A stretch of 64,000 nt of DNA from Chloroflexota bacterium (GTDB taxonomy: Bacteria > Chloroflexota > Dehalococcoidia > Tepidiformales > Tepidiformaceae). Both the position numbers and the translations under genes were made by a program. The stretch lies in NCBI GenBank assembly GCA_016234445.1, contig JACRBT010000001.1, positions 248,001 to 312,000 of the forward strand, read 5' to 3'. Positions 3,855 to 47,676 of the stretch are shown in pieces. Under the pieces are notes generated by a model that was not told where the DNA came from, made no database searches, and saw only the letters and a list, made by a program, of their open reading frames with translations. Position 1 is the stretch's first letter, and the number at the start of each line of letters is the position of its first letter.

Positions 3855-4781
3855 GTGGAGAACACGGACCCTCTTTCGGACGGCGACATCCCCGCCGAAG
3901 CATCACCTGAGACGGAGCTTGCGCCTGAACCCGTTGCGGCCCAGCCGGCGACTCTTCGTCGTCAGCCGGCGTGGAGCTACTTCCTCACGCCGATCGCGGT
4001 GGTGATCGGGTCGGTCATCATTGCCGGGGCCATCTGGTACACCGACGACGACCCGCCCGCCAGCGCCGCTGACACCCACGCGGCGTCCATGGCCGGGGAC
4101 GAGAGCGGCGCCGGGATGTCCGTGGCGCCGACCGTCGCCCCATCGTCCTCGGGGGCGACGACGATGCTGGCGACCCTGCTCGCGTATGCGAAGCAACTGG
4201 GGCTGGACCAGGCCAAGTTCCAGCAGTGTCTCGGCAAGCAGGAGACCTCCCAGGCGATCTCGCGCCAGCTGCAACGGGGACAGGCGCTCGGGGTGAACGG
4301 CACACCCACCTTCTTCATCAACAACAAGCGCATCGTCGGCTCGCAACCGGCAGCGATCTTCGACGAAGTCATCGCCGCCGAGCTGAGGGGGAGCCCGACG
4401 ACGCTCGACGGCTACTCGGACGGGATCAGGCAGCTCGCGGCCACGAGCCCGCCACGGTTCGTTATCGAGGCCCAGAAGGTCGATGTCTCGGACGCGGCCA
4501 TCGAAGGGAACCCGGCGGCGCGGGTGATGATCGCGGAGTTCAGCGACTTCCAGTGCCCGTTTTGCCGCCGCTGGACGCAGGATTACCTGAGCAAGATTCG
4601 CGCCAACCTGGGGAACGACGTCGCGCTCGCGTTTCTCCACTTCCCGATCATCTCGATTCACCCGAACGCGGGGAACGCCTCCGCGGGCGCGGTGTGTGCC
4701 GGGGAGCAGGGGAAGTTCTGGCAGATGCACGACCTGCTGTTTTCGAACCAGGACACGTGGGCGAGCCTGAAGGCGAACTGA
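3855..4781 (+). CDS. Membrane-anchored DsbA-like thioredoxin-fold protein with circularly permuted domain order
   Basis: 308 residues from GTG 3855; the start is uncertain because the best ribosome site lies some 45 nt upstream. Residues 41-61 form one transmembrane segment after a Pro/Glu-rich cytoplasmic tail, followed by a low-complexity linker. Residues about 105-178 match the C-terminal half of DsbA-like domains: YAKQLGLD helix, FQQCL, then GVNGTPTFFINNKRIVG with cis-Pro151, and a final helix. Residues about 202-305 match the N-terminal half: AEFSDFQCPFCRRW with active-site Cys234 and Cys237, HFPI, and GKFWQMHDLLFSNQDTWASL. The protein then stops where a normal DsbA would continue into the half that is here placed first. 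The redox role is inferred from CPFC plus the cis-Pro loop. It could be a working permutant or a degraded tandem duplication. Confidence 0.75.
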   Translation: MENTDPLSDGDIPAEASPETELAPEPVAAQPATLRRQPAWSYFLTPIAVVIGSVIIAGAIWYTDDDPPASAADTHAASMAGDESGAGMSVAPTVAPSSSGATTMLATLLAYAKQLGLDQAKFQQCLGKQETSQAISRQLQRGQALGVNGTPTFFINNKRIVGSQPAAIFDEVIAAELRGSPTTLDGYSDGIRQLAATSPPRFVIEAQKVDVSDAAIEGNPAARVMIAEFSDFQCPFCRRWTQDYLSKIRANLGNDVALAFLHFPIISIHPNAGNASAGAVCAGEQGKFWQMHDLLFSNQDTWASLKAN

Positions 4782-18402: not shown

Positions 18403-20289
18403 CTATTCGACGAAGATCGTCGCCTTCATGTCCGGGTGGTAGTCGCAGGTGATCTTGAACTCGCCCGCGGTGCCGAAGGTGATGGTACGTTCGTCGCCCT
18501 GCTTCAGGTCAGCACCGTCCTTCTTGCCGCCGATGGTGATGGTGTGCACGCCAGTCTTGCTGAGGAACTTCACGGCGGTGCCCTTGGCGATGAGGGCAAC
18601 GCCCTGGTTGGCGGCCTGTGCCGTGCCGTCGGCGGTCAGCGTCCAGTCGTTGGCGTTGGCTACAACGTCGACGGCCTTGGACACGGTGGTGGGCTTCGTG
18701 ACGGGCTTCACGGCGCCCGTGATCTGGTCGTACATGCTCTTGCCGACGGCGTGCTGGACGCAGGCCGTGCCGGAGTTCGGCGTGGTCGGCGGGGCGGTGC
18801 CCCAGGCGTCGTGGGGAAGCGAGAGCACGGTCCCGACACGGACGATGCTGTCCTTGGTCAGGTTCGGGTTCTTGTCCTTGTTCGCCTCGGCGAGGCTGCT
18901 CGCAGTGACGTTTGAATAGCCCTTCGCGACGTCTTCGAGGGTCTGGCCCTGGACGATGTAGCCGTCGATCTTGGGGAGCTTCAGGAGCACGCGGGAGTCC
19001 AGCGGCGTCGAACCGTCGAGGTTGTTCAGCTTGAGGAGCTCGTCGACGGTCATCCCGTGGGCAGCGGCAACGGAGTCATAGCTGTCGCCGCCCTGGACCA
19101 GGACGACGGCGTTGTCGGGCAGCTTCAGCTTCGTGCCGGGGACCATGATGCCGTCGGCGGAGACACCGGACGAAGCGGTGAGTTGGGCGGAGGTGAGCTT
19201 GTGCTCGGTGGCCAGCGCGGCGAAGGAGTCGCCCTTGGCGATGATGACGGAAGCTCCGGCCGGGAGCTTCAGGGTGCGCTCGAACGGCAGCTCCGTGTCC
19301 GCGGTTGCGCTAGAGGGGATGATGCCCGCGTTGAGGGAGGTCAGGGCGGCGACGGTTGTCCCGTGGATGGTCGCGACGAACCCGACGGTGTCACCAGCAC
19401 GGACGGCGTAGACCGCGCCGTCAATCAGCCGGAGCTTGTCCAGGCCCGGGAAGAGGCCGTAGACAGGATTGCCTTCGGCGTTGAGCAGGACGAAGTCGCC
19501 CGACTTCTTGTCGATTCGGTACTTGAGGCCGTTGTCGTCGGCGATGAGAACCGCGCCTACGTGCGTACTCGCGGCCACCTTGGCGATCGTCTCGTTGTCC
19601 TTCTTGACCTCATAGGTGCGGCTGGGGAAGGTCAGGCTGGCCGGGATCTTCAGTTTCGTGCCCTTCTTGAGGAGGGCGTTCGGGTCTGACACCCCGTTGA
19701 GGGCCGCAAGCTGGGCGGGGCCGACGTTGTGGGCGGCGGCGATGGAATCGAGGGTGTCGCCACTGATGATGGCGGTCGACTCGTGGTTGAGGTTCTCGGC
19801 GAAGTGGACCGCCTCTTCCCAGCCTGGGGCCACCGGGTTGCCCTCGGCGTCCAGGACGCTGGGGTCGATAGGGGCAGTGATCAGGTCCACGAGGTGGTCG
19901 ATTTGGCGGAGGTTGAGGGCGCCACCGACCGCGCGTTCGTTTGGATAGACCCCCAGCGTGTTGGCCCAGGCGGGCATCAGGGTGCCGGCGCGGCCGCACA
20001 TGATGGTGGTGCGAAGGAGTTCCTGGTTGGCCTTGAGAACGAGCGGGTCCTGGTTCTTGAAGGCGGCCGTGTTCAGGGGCAGGCCGATGCCGCCTTCTCC
20101 CTTGATCCCGTGGCAGGTGCGGCAGTTGTTGGCGAAGAGGAGGGCGCCGCGTTCGACGGACTCGTCCATCGACCACTGGGTCTGGTTTTCGGCGCGGTAA
20201 GGGAGGTCGATGACGGTGTAGGCGGCACAGCCGCCCACGAAGATGAAGAAGAGGGCGACGATCAGGACGATCTGCTTCTGAGTGTTCAA
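18403..20289 (-). CDS. Cytochrome c-LysM-cupredoxin fusion protein of the bc operon
   Basis: 628 residues in one frame. Residues 7-27 are a membrane anchor; Cys21 after VGG could alternatively be a lipobox. A monohaem cytochrome c domain follows (about 42-138): haem motif CRTCH at 56-60 and probable axial Met105 in GTLMPAW. About five LysM modules come next (approximately 173-216, 293-343, 348-391, 395-439, 444-493), each with an I..GDT/S..IA..H pattern and ending LKLP-like, plus a diverged segment at 225-290. The C-terminus (about 535-628) is a type-1 copper domain with likely ligands His582, Cys615, His618 and Met621 (CDYHPDM). It is the last gene of the bc operon, so it probably takes electrons from the Rieske centre. 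LysM modules usually bind peptidoglycan; wall tethering is inferred. No fusion of this exact order is known to me. Confidence 0.9.
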   Translation of the reverse strand: MNTQKQIVLIVALFFIFVGGCAAYTVIDLPYRAENQTQWSMDESVERGALLFANNCRTCHGIKGEGGIGLPLNTAAFKNQDPLVLKANQELLRTTIMCGRAGTLMPAWANTLGVYPNERAVGGALNLRQIDHLVDLITAPIDPSVLDAEGNPVAPGWEEAVHFAENLNHESTAIISGDTLDSIAAAHNVGPAQLAALNGVSDPNALLKKGTKLKIPASLTFPSRTYEVKKDNETIAKVAASTHVGAVLIADDNGLKYRIDKKSGDFVLLNAEGNPVYGLFPGLDKLRLIDGAVYAVRAGDTVGFVATIHGTTVAALTSLNAGIIPSSATADTELPFERTLKLPAGASVIIAKGDSFAALATEHKLTSAQLTASSGVSADGIMVPGTKLKLPDNAVVLVQGGDSYDSVAAAHGMTVDELLKLNNLDGSTPLDSRVLLKLPKIDGYIVQGQTLEDVAKGYSNVTASSLAEANKDKNPNLTKDSIVRVGTVLSLPHDAWGTAPPTTPNSGTACVQHAVGKSMYDQITGAVKPVTKPTTVSKAVDVVANANDWTLTADGTAQAANQGVALIAKGTAVKFLSKTGVHTITIGGKKDGADLKQGDERTITFGTAGEFKITCDYHPDMKATIFVE

Positions 20290-20301: not shown

Positions 20302-20916
20302 CTAACCGGAATAGGGCTTCGCGCGAAGCGGATTGTCGGGGCCACCCGACGTGATGACGCCGGTGTTGACGTTGAGCGACTTATCGCTGTTGACGGAGAC
20401 AGCCATGGTGTCCATGGGACGCGGGGCAGGACCATAGACTCGAATCCCGGCCCGGGAATAGGTGGAGCCGTGGCAAGGGCAGCGGAACCAGCCAACAATG
20501 CCGGGGAAGTTCACGGCGGCGCCGTTGAAGGCCGGGTTCCAGGGCACGGTGCACCCAAGGTGGGGGCACTTCCAGTAAAGGGCGAGGATGCCGCCGGTGC
20601 CGCCCACCCCGGCCACGTCGCCCTGGGCTCCAGCCAGGTTGGACAGCCAGAATTTGCCTTCGGAGATGCGGGAAGGCTCTTCGCCAGCCTTGGGGACGCG
20701 GGCGGGGACGACGGTGATGACGCCACCGAAGCCTGTGGGCTTTCGGAGGTTGAAGAACCCGAGGAAGCCGGCCGCCATTGCCCCAACCGAGAGCGTGAGC
20801 CCGGCGAAGACGCTGACCCTGAGGAACGAACGGCGCGACAGCTTCCGGGCCTCGGCCTGGCGCGCGTGTTCGATTCGGCGGGCGGCGGCGCCGGCTGATG
20901 GTTGCATCTGCGTCAT
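20302..20916 (-). CDS. Rieske iron-sulphur protein of the bc complex
   Basis: 204 residues. A twin-arginine signal/anchor is visible (KLSRRSFLRVSVFAGLTLSVG, residues about 23-43). The 2Fe-2S ligands are in CPHLGC (box 1) and CPCHGS (box 2), each giving one Cys and one His, with the extra Cys pair that forms the stabilising disulphide. The protein moves electrons from quinol at cytochrome b to the cytochrome c domain encoded next. It lies 9 nt from the subunit IV-like gene and 12 nt from the fusion gene, in one operon. Confidence 0.95.
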   Translation of the reverse strand: MTQMQPSAGAAARRIEHARQAEARKLSRRSFLRVSVFAGLTLSVGAMAAGFLGFFNLRKPTGFGGVITVVPARVPKAGEEPSRISEGKFWLSNLAGAQGDVAGVGGTGGILALYWKCPHLGCTVPWNPAFNGAAVNFPGIVGWFRCPCHGSTYSRAGIRVYGPAPRPMDTMAVSVNSDKSLNVNTGVITSGGPDNPLRAKPYSG

Positions 20917-20924
20917 CGAATTAT

Positions 20925-21788
20925 CTACTCCTGCCCCGGTATGCCTTCACTGACTTTCAGTTCCCACGGGAAGACGAGTTCCTGGCCCTGTCCGCGGAAG
21001 GCTGTGCCGGTGAGCGTCAGAACGCCATAGGCTGCGACGAAGGCCGAAAACAGCACGATCAGCGCGTCGCGCCGGGTTACCACCCAGCCAACCCTCCAGA
21101 GACTGAAGATGAGCATCGCGCTCATCCCGACCATTGCCATGGTTGGGATGCCCTGCTCGACGAGCCACGCCGGGAAGTCAAGGTGCTGGAAGTCTTCGCC
21201 GATGATGACGATGTTCACCGGGGAGTACGTTATGTTGCGCGACCATTCCGGCCACGGGAGCTGCGTCTGGACGGAGCGGACGTTTTCCAGGAACCGGAGG
21301 CTGTCGCCGCCGGAAAGCCCGAACCAGCCGTGGAGGAAGAAGGCGATCTTGCCCGAGTCCCAGAGGATGAGGAACCAGGTGCCTACGAACCCGACGACGG
21401 CCGAGACGATGGTGAGCCGGACTGCTTTTTCGGTGCCGAACCACACTCCCTGGCCGTGCTGTTCGCGGTCGAAGTAGGGGAAGGCGCCCATGATGACGAG
21501 CCAGATGGTGGGGATGATTACCCCGGCCATGGCCGCGTTCATGTGAAGGAGCAGTTCCTGGAGGTTGAGAAGGTACCACGGCGCCTTGGACGGGTTCGGG
21601 GTGACGTCCGCGTTCGCCTGGTCGAGCAAGGGAGCGTTGACCAGGAAAGAGAGCAGGAACAGCGTGATCGTGAAGAGCATCGCGGCGATGAACTCGATGA
21701 AGACGAGGTCGGGCCAGACGAGGACTTCTTCCTCACGCGAACGGGTCTGCGTGCGGGAGACGGGACGGGCGACGACAGCGGTGGCCAT
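20925..21788 (-). CDS. Cytochrome b C-terminal domain protein (subunit IV-like)
   Basis: 287 residues with an extended N-terminal tail, then VWPDLVFIEFIAAMLFTITLFLLS as the first helix. PWYLLNLQELLLHMN resembles the PEWY-type Qo-site motif region of subunit IV/cytochrome b C-terminal domains, with the motif changed to PWY. About six hydrophobic helices are present, more than the three of chloroplast subunit IV, as in other bacterial split complexes. It follows the b6-like gene by 29 nt and precedes the Rieske gene. Together they form the quinol-oxidising core. Confidence 0.88.
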   Translation of the reverse strand: MATAVVARPVSRTQTRSREEEVLVWPDLVFIEFIAAMLFTITLFLLSFLVNAPLLDQANADVTPNPSKAPWYLLNLQELLLHMNAAMAGVIIPTIWLVIMGAFPYFDREQHGQGVWFGTEKAVRLTIVSAVVGFVGTWFLILWDSGKIAFFLHGWFGLSGGDSLRFLENVRSVQTQLPWPEWSRNITYSPVNIVIIGEDFQHLDFPAWLVEQGIPTMAMVGMSAMLIFSLWRVGWVVTRRDALIVLFSAFVAAYGVLTLTGTAFRGQGQELVFPWELKVSEGIPGQE

Positions 21789-21817: not shown

Positions 21818-22570
21818 CTAAAGCGGCCGGGCGAGGCCGCCGTCGCGGCGGATTCGCCAGAAATGGACTGCCATGAAGATGGCCGCCAGGAGGGGCAGGC
21901 CAATCACGTGCAGCGTGTAGAAGCGGATGAGGGCCTGGGGACCAACTTCAAAGCCGCCGAGCAGCCAGAAGCGGGTCTTGGGGCCCAGGACCGGCGCCGA
22001 GCCGGCGATGTTCGTACCGACGGTGATGGCCCAGAACGCGAGCTGGTCCCAGGGCAGCAGGTAGCCGGTGAAGGAGAGGAGGAAGGTGAGGACGAGGAGG
22101 ATGACCCCGACCACCCAGTTGAATTCGCGGGGCGGCTTGTAAGCCCCGGTGTAGAAGACCCGCATCATGTGCATGAAGACGAGGATGACCATGGCGTGGG
22201 CCATCCAGCGGTGCATGTTCCGCATCAGCTGGCCGAACTCGACGGTGTTCTGGATGGTCTGGATGTCCAGGTAGGCCCGTTCGACGCTGGGGACGTAGTA
22301 GAACATCAGGAGGATGCCGGTGACCGTGAGGCCGAGGAACATGAAGAAGGAGAGCCCACCGAGGCAGTAGGTGTGGGTGATCTTCACGTGGGTGCGGTGG
22401 ATGCGGGTGGGGTGGAGGTGGAGGAAGAGGTTCGTCGCCACCACGAGCATCTGGTTACGGGGGGTGTTCGGGTAACCGGTGCGGAAGATGGACTTCCACA
22501 CGTAGTTATGGAACATCATGTCGTAGAGCTTGTCGCCGACGGTTGGCTTGGTGGGTTGCTCGACTGCCAT
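21818..22570 (-). CDS. Cytochrome b6-type N-terminal subunit of a bc complex
   Basis: 250 residues from ATG 22570, chosen because AGGAG lies 7-8 nt upstream; the frame could extend nine codons more. Four membrane helices carry two b-haems. The likely ligands are His120 and His134 in one helix and His221 and His236 in the other. The 15-residue spacing of the second pair is the b6-type pattern, unlike the 14 of mitochondrial cytochrome b. [16 protein letters not shown] matches the family Qo-side segment. It is preceded by a 39-residue membrane peptide and followed by the subunit IV-like gene. Confidence 0.93.
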
Positions 22571-22584
22571 TGTCGCTCCTGGCC

Positions 22585-22704
22585 TTACTTCTGCCACCAG
22601 TGGCCAAAGGCCACCATGATGGCGAGTGAGACAACGATGGTGATACCAACGAAGACGAGTTCGAGCGTCTCCGCGAAGTCATGAGGCAGGTTGGAAAACT
22701 CCAC
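22585..22704 (-). CDS. 39-residue single-helix membrane protein heading the bc operon
   Basis: Starts at GTG 22704 with GGGGAGG about 11 nt upstream, giving [19 protein letters not shown]..., a hydrophobic helix at about residues 15-34 and a GHWWQK end. It stops 14 nt before the cytochrome b6-like start. Small one-helix subunits (PetG, PetL, PetM, PetN) belong to b6f complexes, so by position this may be an analogous small subunit. Sequence homology to those peptides is not evident. It is probably real because of the ribosome site, spacing and membrane helix. Confidence 0.65.
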
Positions 22705-32843: not shown

Positions 32844-34193
32844 CTACCGTGTCGCCACAAGCACCTCGTCCTCGATGGGACGGGGGGCGGGGCTGGAAAT
32901 CGAATCCCGGCCATCGTACATGCGCAGGACCGTAGCGGCGAGCTTCACAGGGTCGTGGCGGTAGCGGTTCGAATCGGAGACGACGTCGGCTTCGATGAGG
33001 CGGACCGGGGCGAGGGCGGCGGCCTGCCCTTCGTTGACGGTCACGGGGTCCGAGTGCCAGGCCTCGGGGAGGGGCGCGGGCGGGATGTTGTTGTTGGCGA
33101 TGACCGCGTGGATGACGCCCTTGAAGGTGTGGCCTTCGACCGCGGCCAGGTGGTCGGCGACGGAGAAGCCGTCGGTTTCGCCGTGCTGAGTGGCGACGTT
33201 GCAGACGAAGACACGGGTGGCCGTGGTGGCCAGCAGCGCCTTCTGTATGCCCGGGACGAGGAGGTTCGGGAGCACGCTCGTGTAGAGGCTTCCCGGGCCG
33301 ATGACGATGATGTCCGCGTCGAGGATGGCGCGGACGGCATCGGGGTGGGCTTCGGCGTCGGGCGGGTTGAGGAAGAGTTCGTGGATGGCGGCGCCGTGCT
33401 CGGTGATGTTGTGCTCGCCGTGGACCATCTCGTCCTCATGGGTGCGAGCGCTGAGGGTGACGTCCTCAAGGGTCGAGGGGAGGATGCTGCCGCGGACGTT
33501 GAGGATCTGGCTGGTTTCGTAGACCGCGGTTTCGAAGTTCCCGGTGACCTCCGCCATCGCGACGATGAAGAGGTTGCCGAAGGAGTGCCCTTCGAGGCCG
33601 GTGCCTTCCTTGAAGCGGTACTGGAAGAGGCGCGACATCAGGGGTTCGGCCTCGGCGAGGGCGGCGATGCACTGCCGGATGTCCCCGGGGGCGACGACGC
33701 CGAACTCCTGGCGGAGACGGCCGGTGCTGCCCCCGTCGTCGGCGACGGTGACGATGGCCGTGAGGTTGCTCGTGTGGGCTTTGAGGCCGCGGAGGAGCAT
33801 CGAGAGCCCGGTCCCACCGCCGATGGCGACGATCTTGGGGCCGCGGGCGAGGATTCGGCGCCGGTAGATGGTGTCGGCCATGTCGTGGTCGCGGTCCGGG
33901 CGGACGAACGCCCAGAGCAGCGATTCGTTCAGCTTCCAGATGGCGAGGCCGACGGTGGTAAGCGAGAGCCCGATGAAGAGCAGGCCCCTGGCCCAGCGAG
34001 GGATGAACTGAAGGGTCAGATAGTAGAACTCGCCGGGAAATTCGTAGACGAGGTAGGCCTCGCGGAGGACGTAGGCGATGCCGAGGCCCATGAGGCAGAT
34101 GCCGAGGAGGAGGAGGCCCAGCCAGCGCTTGATGTGCATGCCCGGGTAAAGCCACTTGAAAACGCTGTGCTCGCGGATCTGCTGGATGGTCAT
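32844..34193 (-). CDS. YvcK/CofD-like UDP-sugar-binding regulatory protein with N-terminal membrane anchor
   Basis: 449 residues. Residues about 20-90 contain two membrane helices (WLGLLLLGICLMGLGIAYV and GLLFIGLSLTTVGLAIW), then the cytoplasmic YvcK domain from IVAIGGGTGLSMLLRGLK. Conserved elements are IVTVADDGGSTGRLRQEFGV, PGDIRQCIAALAE and IVIGPGSLYTSVLPNLLVPGI. YvcK proteins bind UDP-GlcNAc and adjust carbon flow to cell-wall precursors in Firmicutes. The membrane anchor is common in Chloroflexota and actinobacterial versions. It heads the yvcK-secG-SBP-fmt-rlmN operon. Confidence 0.9.
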   Translation of the reverse strand: MTIQQIREHSVFKWLYPGMHIKRWLGLLLLGICLMGLGIAYVLREAYLVYEFPGEFYYLTLQFIPRWARGLLFIGLSLTTVGLAIWKLNESLLWAFVRPDRDHDMADTIYRRRILARGPKIVAIGGGTGLSMLLRGLKAHTSNLTAIVTVADDGGSTGRLRQEFGVVAPGDIRQCIAALAEAEPLMSRLFQYRFKEGTGLEGHSFGNLFIVAMAEVTGNFETAVYETSQILNVRGSILPSTLEDVTLSARTHEDEMVHGEHNITEHGAAIHELFLNPPDAEAHPDAVRAILDADIIVIGPGSLYTSVLPNLLVPGIQKALLATTATRVFVCNVATQHGETDGFSVADHLAAVEGHTFKGVIHAVIANNNIPPAPLPEAWHSDPVTVNEGQAAALAPVRLIEADVVSDSNRYRHDPVKLAATVLRMYDGRDSISSPAPRPIEDEVLVATR

Positions 34194-46217: not shown

Positions 46218-47194
46218 GCTTCCGGGTGTTCGGACTCCGGTTCCAGCCTGGGGGGCGTGGCGACCGTGAAGGAAAAGGCTACGTCCTCGAAGCCGAGCGC
46301 GCGAACCTCGCCCACCATGTCAGGGGGCAGGGGAGCCGTGACCGTCAGCCGTCCGCCCGCCGGGTGGGGGACGCGGATCTGCCAGGCGTGCAGCATCTGG
46401 CGGCCCGGCCCGGCGGCGCCGTAGACGCGGTCATAGCGGACGGGAGCGTGGACCGCCGCGAGATGGACGCGAATCTGGTGCGTCCGGCCCGTGAGCGGGT
46501 GGGCGGCAACGAGCGCCGCGTCCCGGGTGGCGGCGAGGACCTCATATTCGGTCCGGGCATCGCGGCCGCCCTTGCCGATGGCCATGCGCGTGCGATCGCC
46601 CGGGTGCCGGGCGATGGCGGCTTCGATCGCGGCTTTTTCCCGGGCGGGGACGCCCTCGGTGATGGCGATGTAGGTCTTGTACACTTCGCGCGACTCGAAT
46701 GCGTGGCTGAGGGCGGCCTGGGCAGCGGGCGTTTTCGCGAGGAGGAGGACGCCGCTCGTGTCCTTGTCCAGCCGGTGGACGACGCCGGGGCGCTCGGCTT
46801 CGAACACGGCCGCGGCGGCAGGGTAGTGTTCGACGAACCAGGCCGCGACAGTGGGCCCGGTGTCGCCGGGAGCGCCGTGGACGGACACGCCGGGCGGCTT
46901 GGCTATCGCGAGAAGGTGGTCGTCTTCGAAGAGGATCTCGAAGTGGAGGCCGGTCTGAGTGGCGGCCTTGGGGGTTTCGGGGATGGTCAACGTGACCTGG
47001 TCGCCAGGCTGCACCTGCCCCGACTTCCGCACCGGGCCGTCATTGACCGTGGCGTTCCCGGCTGCGATGAGGCGCTGGAGGCGGGCGCGGCTGAGGTCGG
47101 GGTAGGAGGCGGCAAGGACGGCGTCGATGCGGCCCGGGGTCTCTACGACGAGTTGGCGGATGTCGCCTCGCCCGTCTCGAAGGTGATTGTCCAT
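46214..47194 (-). CDS. RluD-type pseudouridine synthase
   Basis: 326 residues if started at ATG 47194, which overlaps lspA by 52 nt; a later start near the S4 domain is possible. N-terminal S4 RNA-binding domain (RIDAVLAASYPDLSRARLQRLIAAGNATVNDGPV), then the catalytic GVVHRLDKDTSGVLLLAKT motif with the Asp that attacks uridine, and GRTHQIRVHLA. It makes pseudouridines in 23S rRNA, as RluD does at 1911/1915/1917; the exact sites are not known here. It lies between lspA and gltX. Confidence 0.92.
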   Translation of the reverse strand: MDNHLRDGRGDIRQLVVETPGRIDAVLAASYPDLSRARLQRLIAAGNATVNDGPVRKSGQVQPGDQVTLTIPETPKAATQTGLHFEILFEDDHLLAIAKPPGVSVHGAPGDTGPTVAAWFVEHYPAAAAVFEAERPGVVHRLDKDTSGVLLLAKTPAAQAALSHAFESREVYKTYIAITEGVPAREKAAIEAAIARHPGDRTRMAIGKGGRDARTEYEVLAATRDAALVAAHPLTGRTHQIRVHLAAVHAPVRYDRVYGAAGPGRQMLHAWQIRVPHPAGGRLTVTAPLPPDMVGEVRALGFEDVAFSFTVATPPRLEPESEHPEA

Positions 47195-47676
47195 ACAAGC
47201 AGTATTACACCGATCGTGATAGCAGAGTCGGCAAGGTTGAATGCCGGCCAGTGCGGGAACTTCACGAAGTCCACGACTTCGCCGTTCGCGACGCGGTCGA
47301 TGAGGTTGCCGATCGCCCCGCCGAGCATCATCGCCAGGCCAAGGCGGAGGAGCGGGTGGGCGAATCCAGGGTTGAAGAGGTAGACCAGGATCGCGGCCAT
47401 CCCGAAGACAGAGGTGACGGCGAGGAGTGGCCCCGAGTCCTGGAGGATGCCGAAAGCGGCGCCGCTGTTGGTCACGTGGACGAAGTGGACCGGCCAGCCG
47501 TCCGGCCAGCGTTCCCCGAGGCCGAGACGCCCGCTCGCGAACCACTTGGTCAGCTGATCGAGCCCGACCACCAGCGCGGCGACGGCCAGGAACCAGGCGT
47601 CGCGAGGACGGGCTGCCAGTTTGGGCGGGGTGAAGCCGGGGACACGGCGGGCCGATGCGTCTTCCATTGCCACCAT
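47143..47676 (-). CDS. lspA: Lipoprotein signal peptidase
   Basis: 177 residues with four membrane helices. The catalytic Asp pair is in GGAIGNLIDRVANGEVVDF and FNLADSAITIG; VTNSGAAFGIL is the conserved first box. It removes signal peptides from diacylated prolipoproteins such as the 3.4-kb lipoprotein. It is first in lspA-rluD-gltX-tRNA-Gln. A Pro/Arg-rich N-terminal tail precedes the first helix. Confidence 0.95.
   Translation of the reverse strand: MVAMEDASARRVPGFTPPKLAARPRDAWFLAVAALVVGLDQLTKWFASGRLGLGERWPDGWPVHFVHVTNSGAAFGILQDSGPLLAVTSVFGMAAILVYLFNPGFAHPLLRLGLAMMLGGAIGNLIDRVANGEVVDFVKFPHWPAFNLADSAITIGVILLVWTITFETGEATSANSS

Follow-up and report, generated by a model that had tools for sequence, protein, structure and literature searches.

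Why should the last gene of a respiratory bc operon encode a haem c domain, a run of LysM modules and a copper domain within a single chain, and between which partners would such a protein pass electrons? The question is raised by one gene in the window, by which we mean the whole 64,000-nucleotide stretch of Chloroflexota DNA that was analyzed. A preliminary description of the sequence had read the product as an electron carrier tethered to the cell wall, with transfer from haem to copper across the peptidoglycan. As set out below, the carrier part of that reading stands: the protein belongs to a b6-type bc complex and has a haem end, a copper end and LysM modules between the two. Tethering to the wall is plausible, and transfer across the peptidoglycan is not supported.

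A conserved gene closes a b6-type bc operon

The open reading frame has a TTG start and encodes 628 amino acids without an internal stop. It and its neighbors are arranged as follows:

18403..20289, minus strand: whole gene, 628 aa (anchor, cytochrome c, LysM array, type-1 copper domain)
20302..20916, minus strand: Rieske iron-sulfur subunit (Pfam PF00355, 2.7e-6; syntenic at all loci examined)
20925..21788, minus strand: PetD-like subunit IV of a split cytochrome b (Pfam PF00032, 4.4e-4; synteny)
21818..22597, minus strand: PetB-like cytochrome b6 (Pfam PF00033, 9.6e-48; NF040969, 2e-89)
22585..22704, minus strand: single-helix membrane ORF of 39 codons (C-terminal sequence conservation)

The gene had been described as ending a b6-type bc operon, and it does: the order is PetB-PetD-Rieske-gene, all on the minus strand, with cytochrome b split in the b6 fashion. 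A cytochrome c gene closes the PetB-PetD-Rieske operon in 21/21 loci checked, inside and outside the source family. This conserved last place, co-operonic with cytochrome b and the Rieske protein, identifies the gene as the cytochrome c subunit of a b6-type bc complex. The 39-codon ORF overlaps the start of petB. Directly upstream of petB, the family and two loci from other families of Dehalococcoidia (L042 and L044) retain the sequence of its C-terminal part; the ORF probably encodes a small, unannotated membrane subunit of the complex.

Identically ordered homologues, 37-64% identical to the window's protein, are found in most genomes of the source family (Dehalococcoidia, Chloroflexota), and the domain order is kept throughout our alignment of 22 full-length family sequences, in which the window's protein is included. 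A frameshift or an assembly join, either of which would have undone the single-protein reading, is ruled out by the recurrence of the identical frame in more than 20 independent genomes, single-contig ones included. The union of cytochrome c, about five LysM modules and a type-1 copper domain in one frame is likewise borne out by the ORF, by Pfam and by a homologue profile, and the residues originally named (CRTCH at 56-60, H582, C615, H618 and M621) are correctly placed and nearly invariant in the alignment. The product of 18403-20289 is a real, conserved and unusual protein.

Anchor and redox domains

20218..20289, minus strand: N-terminal membrane anchor, residues 1-24, with lipobox-like VGGC (C21) (alignment and hydropathy)
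19870..20166, minus strand: class-I cytochrome c domain, residues ~42-140 (Pfam PF13442, PF00034)
20110..20124, minus strand: haem c motif CRTCH, residues 56-60 (sequence)
18406..18681, minus strand: type-1 copper (cupredoxin) domain, residues 537-628, ligands H582, C615, H618 and M621

Hydropathy is maximal (2.48) at residues 7-27, C21 is invariant in a lipobox-like context in all 22 family sequences, and an SPase II gene is found within the window at 47143-47676; the anchor may be either a lipid or an uncleaved helix. The domain that follows has the CxxCH motif and the downstream axial methionine of a class-I cytochrome c. It scores above cut-off with Pfam Cytochrome_CBB3 (PF13442, E=1.1e-6) and matches PF00034 at E=1.3e-4, and a search with the whole-family profile recovers CcoP haem-domain structures. 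C56, C59 and H60 are invariant across the 22 homologues, and the axial M105, in an MPxW-type loop, is methionine in 21 of them, with glutamine in L029.

At the other end of the chain, the ligand set is His-Cys-His-Met with Cys-x2-His-x2-Met spacing, as in type-1 copper proteins; H582, C615 and H618 are invariant in the 22 homologues and M621 is kept in 21. The profile searches suggested in the preliminary description gave a divided answer for this domain. Pfam Cupredoxin_1 reaches only 19.1 bits (E=0.0013) in the 628-aa protein, below its 27-bit gathering cut-off, but relatives pass the same model (e.g. L041, at 106 bits), and a profile built from 15 homologous C-terminal domains matches type-1 copper proteins among solved structures: copper nitrite reductase (1.2e-11; best PDB match 9cck), amicyanin (2.2e-6) and plastocyanin (3.4e-6). 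As to the Greek-key beta fold of cupredoxins, a low-confidence model of the copper domain, made from minimal sequence input, had top fold-search matches without a cupredoxin; an AlphaFold model of the whole protein, made from two sequences only, had a pLDDT of 43, and the two models weigh neither for nor against. We infer that both the haem and the copper site are loaded with metal.

Exchange of the second redox unit among relatives

Homologous cytochrome c domains are found in other Dehalococcoidia families and in other classes of Chloroflexota, followed by a copper domain, a second haem c or nothing. Across 108 related proteins, the C-terminal domain is a CxxH-type copper domain in 65, a Cx4H-type copper domain in 13, a haem c in 26 and absent in 4; the first copper type carries CxxHPxxM and the second resembles sulfocyanin (Pfam SoxE). 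A quick tree of the 108 cytochrome domains requires at least 10 changes between these states; counting only those that well-supported branches make unavoidable leaves 3 to 4 per main type. Such repeated swapping, with the domain missing from so few proteins, indicates that a second redox unit is usually kept but is interchangeable. In many relatives the second domain is flanked by low-complexity Pro/Thr/Ala linkers.

A pair of extra cysteines

19996..19998, minus strand: Cys98, extra cysteine in TxxCGRxGTxMPxW, beside axial Met105 (alignment, cysteine co-occurrence)
18760..18762, minus strand: Cys510, second extra cysteine (GTACVQHA; CGQ in relatives) (cysteine co-occurrence)

Apart from the cysteines of the haem and copper sites and C21 of the anchor, the protein has only these two. 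Cys98 is seven residues upstream of the axial methionine, and Cys510 precedes the copper domain by ~25 residues. In 111 homologues both are present in 93, neither in 17 and the first alone in 1 (a protein cut by a contig end); the 93:17 count does not amount to 110 independent tests, the pair having been gained or lost in about two events on the tree. The further cysteines of L093, L097, L103 and L130 are likewise paired. In four proteins (L044, L099, L114 and L122) the chain ends soon after the second cysteine, with no second redox domain, and both cysteines are retained, which ties the pair to the loop and not to the copper. For these four forms, the link to the oxidase must be another carrier.

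The simplest reading of this co-occurrence is a Cys98-Cys510 disulfide. Should it form, the LysM modules would sit in a closed loop projecting from the chain, with the copper domain held near the haem. A DsbA/thioredoxin-like protein is encoded at 3855-4781 of the window (plus strand), consistent with disulfide formation outside the membrane.

The segment between the two cysteines ranges from 65 to 511 residues in homologues, and its content varies. Long 'VERGxxGTxxxxHxxGT' repeats, with weak likeness to phage tail and virion proteins, occupy the loop in other Dehalococcoidia families:

Repeat-filled loop proteins: L107:2030-4303; L121:1546-3576; L128:1949-4027; L129:1042-3135; L143:1253-3343; L115:1432-3051

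A similar repeat occurs in L130:554-1861 and L145:1477-2793 inside the cytochrome c domain itself, between the haem and axial Met motifs.

The LysM array and possible attachment to the wall

18814..19773, minus strand: LysM array, residues 173-492 (Pfam, family HMM, LysM structure matches)
LysM modules, by residue: 173-216, (225-290 degenerate), 293-343, 348-391, 396-439, 444-492

For LysM, the profile search was unequivocal: Pfam finds five stretches (E=2.4e-37, 127.1 bits against a gathering score of 20.9), and the LysM structures 4uz2, 4xcm and 4s3j are matched by the whole-family profile. A degenerate sixth module (~225-290) scores in some homologues only. All 22 family members carry LysM (best Pfam E=6.9e-44) in three to six modules, some of them degenerate. 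Outside the family, Pfam detects LysM in 0 of 41 other subunits and the family HMM finds none in a wider set of relatives' subunits. Its presence is a single change on the tree. This restriction to one family is most simply explained by a late insertion of LysM into an older protein that already had a haem and a second carrier. That the LysM or copper motifs arose by chance resemblance is ruled out by the Pfam scores, the family-wide conservation and the copper-protein profile matches.

Do the modules hold the wall? The murG gene is present in 19/19 family genomes tested and absent from two genomes of another family (f14: G049 and G102). Cultured Tepidiforma, of the same class, is monoderm, with a 40-nm periplasm that holds a confirmed peptidoglycan layer of ~20 nm (PMC10284905). 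Relatives with murG and without LysM also exist, which rules out that LysM is simply due to the presence of peptidoglycan, and makes wall attachment an added feature that such a complex does not need. The strongest competing reading is that the repeats are a non-binding structural spacer, a loop filler that was swapped in and makes no wall contact. The varying number and partial decay of the modules would suit a filler, as would the unrelated repeats that occupy the corresponding loop in other families and the murG-positive relatives that do without LysM; good-scoring LysM in every family member and murG in every family genome tested speak against it, and we regard it as rather unlikely. Wall attachment via LysM is a plausible prediction.

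Electron partners and the proposed relay

In the source genome, two Pfam models detect a cytochrome c domain in just two genes: the gene described here and a fusion of CopC, CopD and cytochrome c (726 aa; L157:4665-6845, on G000:C2) next to a gene that also has a CopC domain. Neither is a multihaem cytochrome. No small cytochrome c was found by these two models in the genome, nor by one Pfam model in eight relatives, although divergent ones could escape; the eight relatives have one or two cytochrome c domain genes each, and the single-contig G011 has only that of the bc operon. A search of the genome for the COX1 family gives one gene above cut-off. It lies in a CoxB-CoxA-CoxC run, and the CoxB there contains a CuA-type domain and lacks any CxxCH motif. 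The membrane aa3-type oxidase is the obvious acceptor that the genome offers. Two small lipoprotein-like cupredoxins are also encoded and could be additional electron shuttles. Elsewhere in the genome, L004:538-2892 (G000:C5) encodes 784 aa with at least four cupredoxin-like repeats, CxxHPxM motifs and Pro/Thr-rich linkers between them. On the minus strand of the window, 32844-34193 encodes a member of the CofD-like 2-phospho-L-lactate transferase family (2.6e-104) that begins with a membrane segment at its N-terminus.

We infer a disulfide, an electron path and peptidoglycan binding, with the 628-aa protein as the main relay between the bc complex and the aa3-type oxidase. Electrons would pass from quinol to the Rieske cluster, to haem c (42-140), to the type-1 copper (537-628) and on to CuA of oxidase subunit II, with the copper domain taking the role that the second haem has in actinobacterial QcrC. 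A bond between Cys98, beside the axial-Met loop, and Cys510 would loop out the intervening segment and keep the copper domain near the haem. From that loop, the three to six LysM modules would project outward and bind peptidoglycan, carrying no electrons themselves and pinning the bc complex, with its N-terminal anchor, to the wall. We put the probability of this reading – a tethered bc-to-oxidase relay, with copper kept near haem by a disulfide and the LysM loop as a wall hook – at roughly two in three.

The copper domain may instead be a flexible tethered carrier that, with no disulfide, swings between haem c and the oxidase on an arm of LysM and linker, wall contact being optional. The Pro/Thr/Ala linkers around the second domain in many relatives would allow such movement, and even with the disulfide a stretch of some 25 residues would lie between Cys510 and the copper domain; the strict pairing of the extra cysteines, even in forms without a second domain, makes this version improbable.

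Transfer across the peptidoglycan, as originally proposed, fares worse. It would have LysM span the wall, with electrons leaving haem near the membrane and reaching copper at the outer face or outside it, as an extracellular conduit. A long array, a copper domain C-terminal to it and a LysM family that binds peptidoglycan all fit. Electron tunnelling is limited to ~1.4 nm between cofactors, however, and an array of many nanometres with no redox centre of its own exceeds that distance. The loop is probably closed by Cys98-Cys510, relatives place a haem-copper or haem-haem pair at the identical operon position without LysM, and a membrane aa3 oxidase is present as acceptor. Two Pfam models recovered no multihaem cytochrome, and the open-access literature yielded no precedent for a LysM cytochrome; we reject the conduit as very improbable. 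Least credible of all is a C-terminal domain that donates copper to the oxidase in the manner of a chaperone and carries no electrons: Met and His ligands and a copper-dependent oxidase would fit, but the type-1 ligand set is complete, Cys included, the domain shares its chain with a haem domain and is encoded in a bc operon, and relatives replace it with a second haem c, which cannot deliver copper.

Returning to the tethered relay, its fullest form would have the bc complex stapled to the peptidoglycan by a disulfide-closed LysM hook, with a blue-copper head as the main link to aa3 and the whole chain thereby fixed to the wall. We offer this form tentatively, as somewhat more apt to fail than to hold. 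If true, the LysM loop would, as far as we have found, make this the first predicted case of a respiratory complex secured to the wall. Within a single phylum, a common cytochrome c base has come to bear either of two copper types, haem or nothing as its second carrier, and this exchange is a natural experiment on how a link between bc complex and oxidase may be built. Tepidiforma, which can be cultured and has confirmed peptidoglycan, could allow testing if the gene is present there.

Comparison with known systems

The preliminary description knew of no protein with this domain order, and none was found in the open-access literature. Close relatives are other Chloroflexota cytochrome c-cupredoxin proteins (L041, L042, L043, L091 and others), which have the same anchor region, cytochrome c, cysteine pair and C-terminal copper domain, and L041-L043 share the operon where this was checked. 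They differ in having no LysM, the loop being 65-511 residues of linker or other repeats.

Other known systems resemble parts of the protein. LysM wall-binding proteins such as LytE and the NlpC/P60 endopeptidases have tandem LysM modules, but the 628-aa protein has no hydrolase domain and joins its modules to respiratory domains. Copper nitrite reductases that carry a tethered cytochrome c or cupredoxin domain, Chloroflexota forms included (PMC8756737, PMC13324648), are likewise natural fusions of redox partners, haem c and copper; they are catalytic enzymes, whereas the protein described here has no catalytic site and is encoded in a bc operon. Cytochrome f of b6f and cytochrome c1 of bc1 occupy the corresponding place, next after the Rieske protein, and do the corresponding work of a high-potential c-type subunit. 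The 628-aa protein differs from them in its class-I cytochrome c domain and its extra domains, and neither the cytochrome c1 nor the cytochrome f family appears among its Pfam matches to E 1.

In function, the nearest parallel is QcrC of the actinobacterial bcc-aa3 supercomplex, which links complexes III and IV where free cytochrome c is absent (PMC8361435). Both are c-type subunits of a bc complex with two electron-carrying units per chain, the source organism here too is apparently short of free cytochrome c, and for both a direct link to an aa3 oxidase is proposed. The protein falls outside the QcrC family model (25.1 bits against a cut-off of 200) and has one CxxCH motif where QcrC has two. 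Its second unit is a type-1 copper domain rather than a haem, its anchor is N-terminal rather than C-terminal, and it carries the LysM insert. As read from its sequence, it belongs with the known bc-complex cytochrome c subunits that tether a second carrier, and adds to them a LysM loop of putative function.
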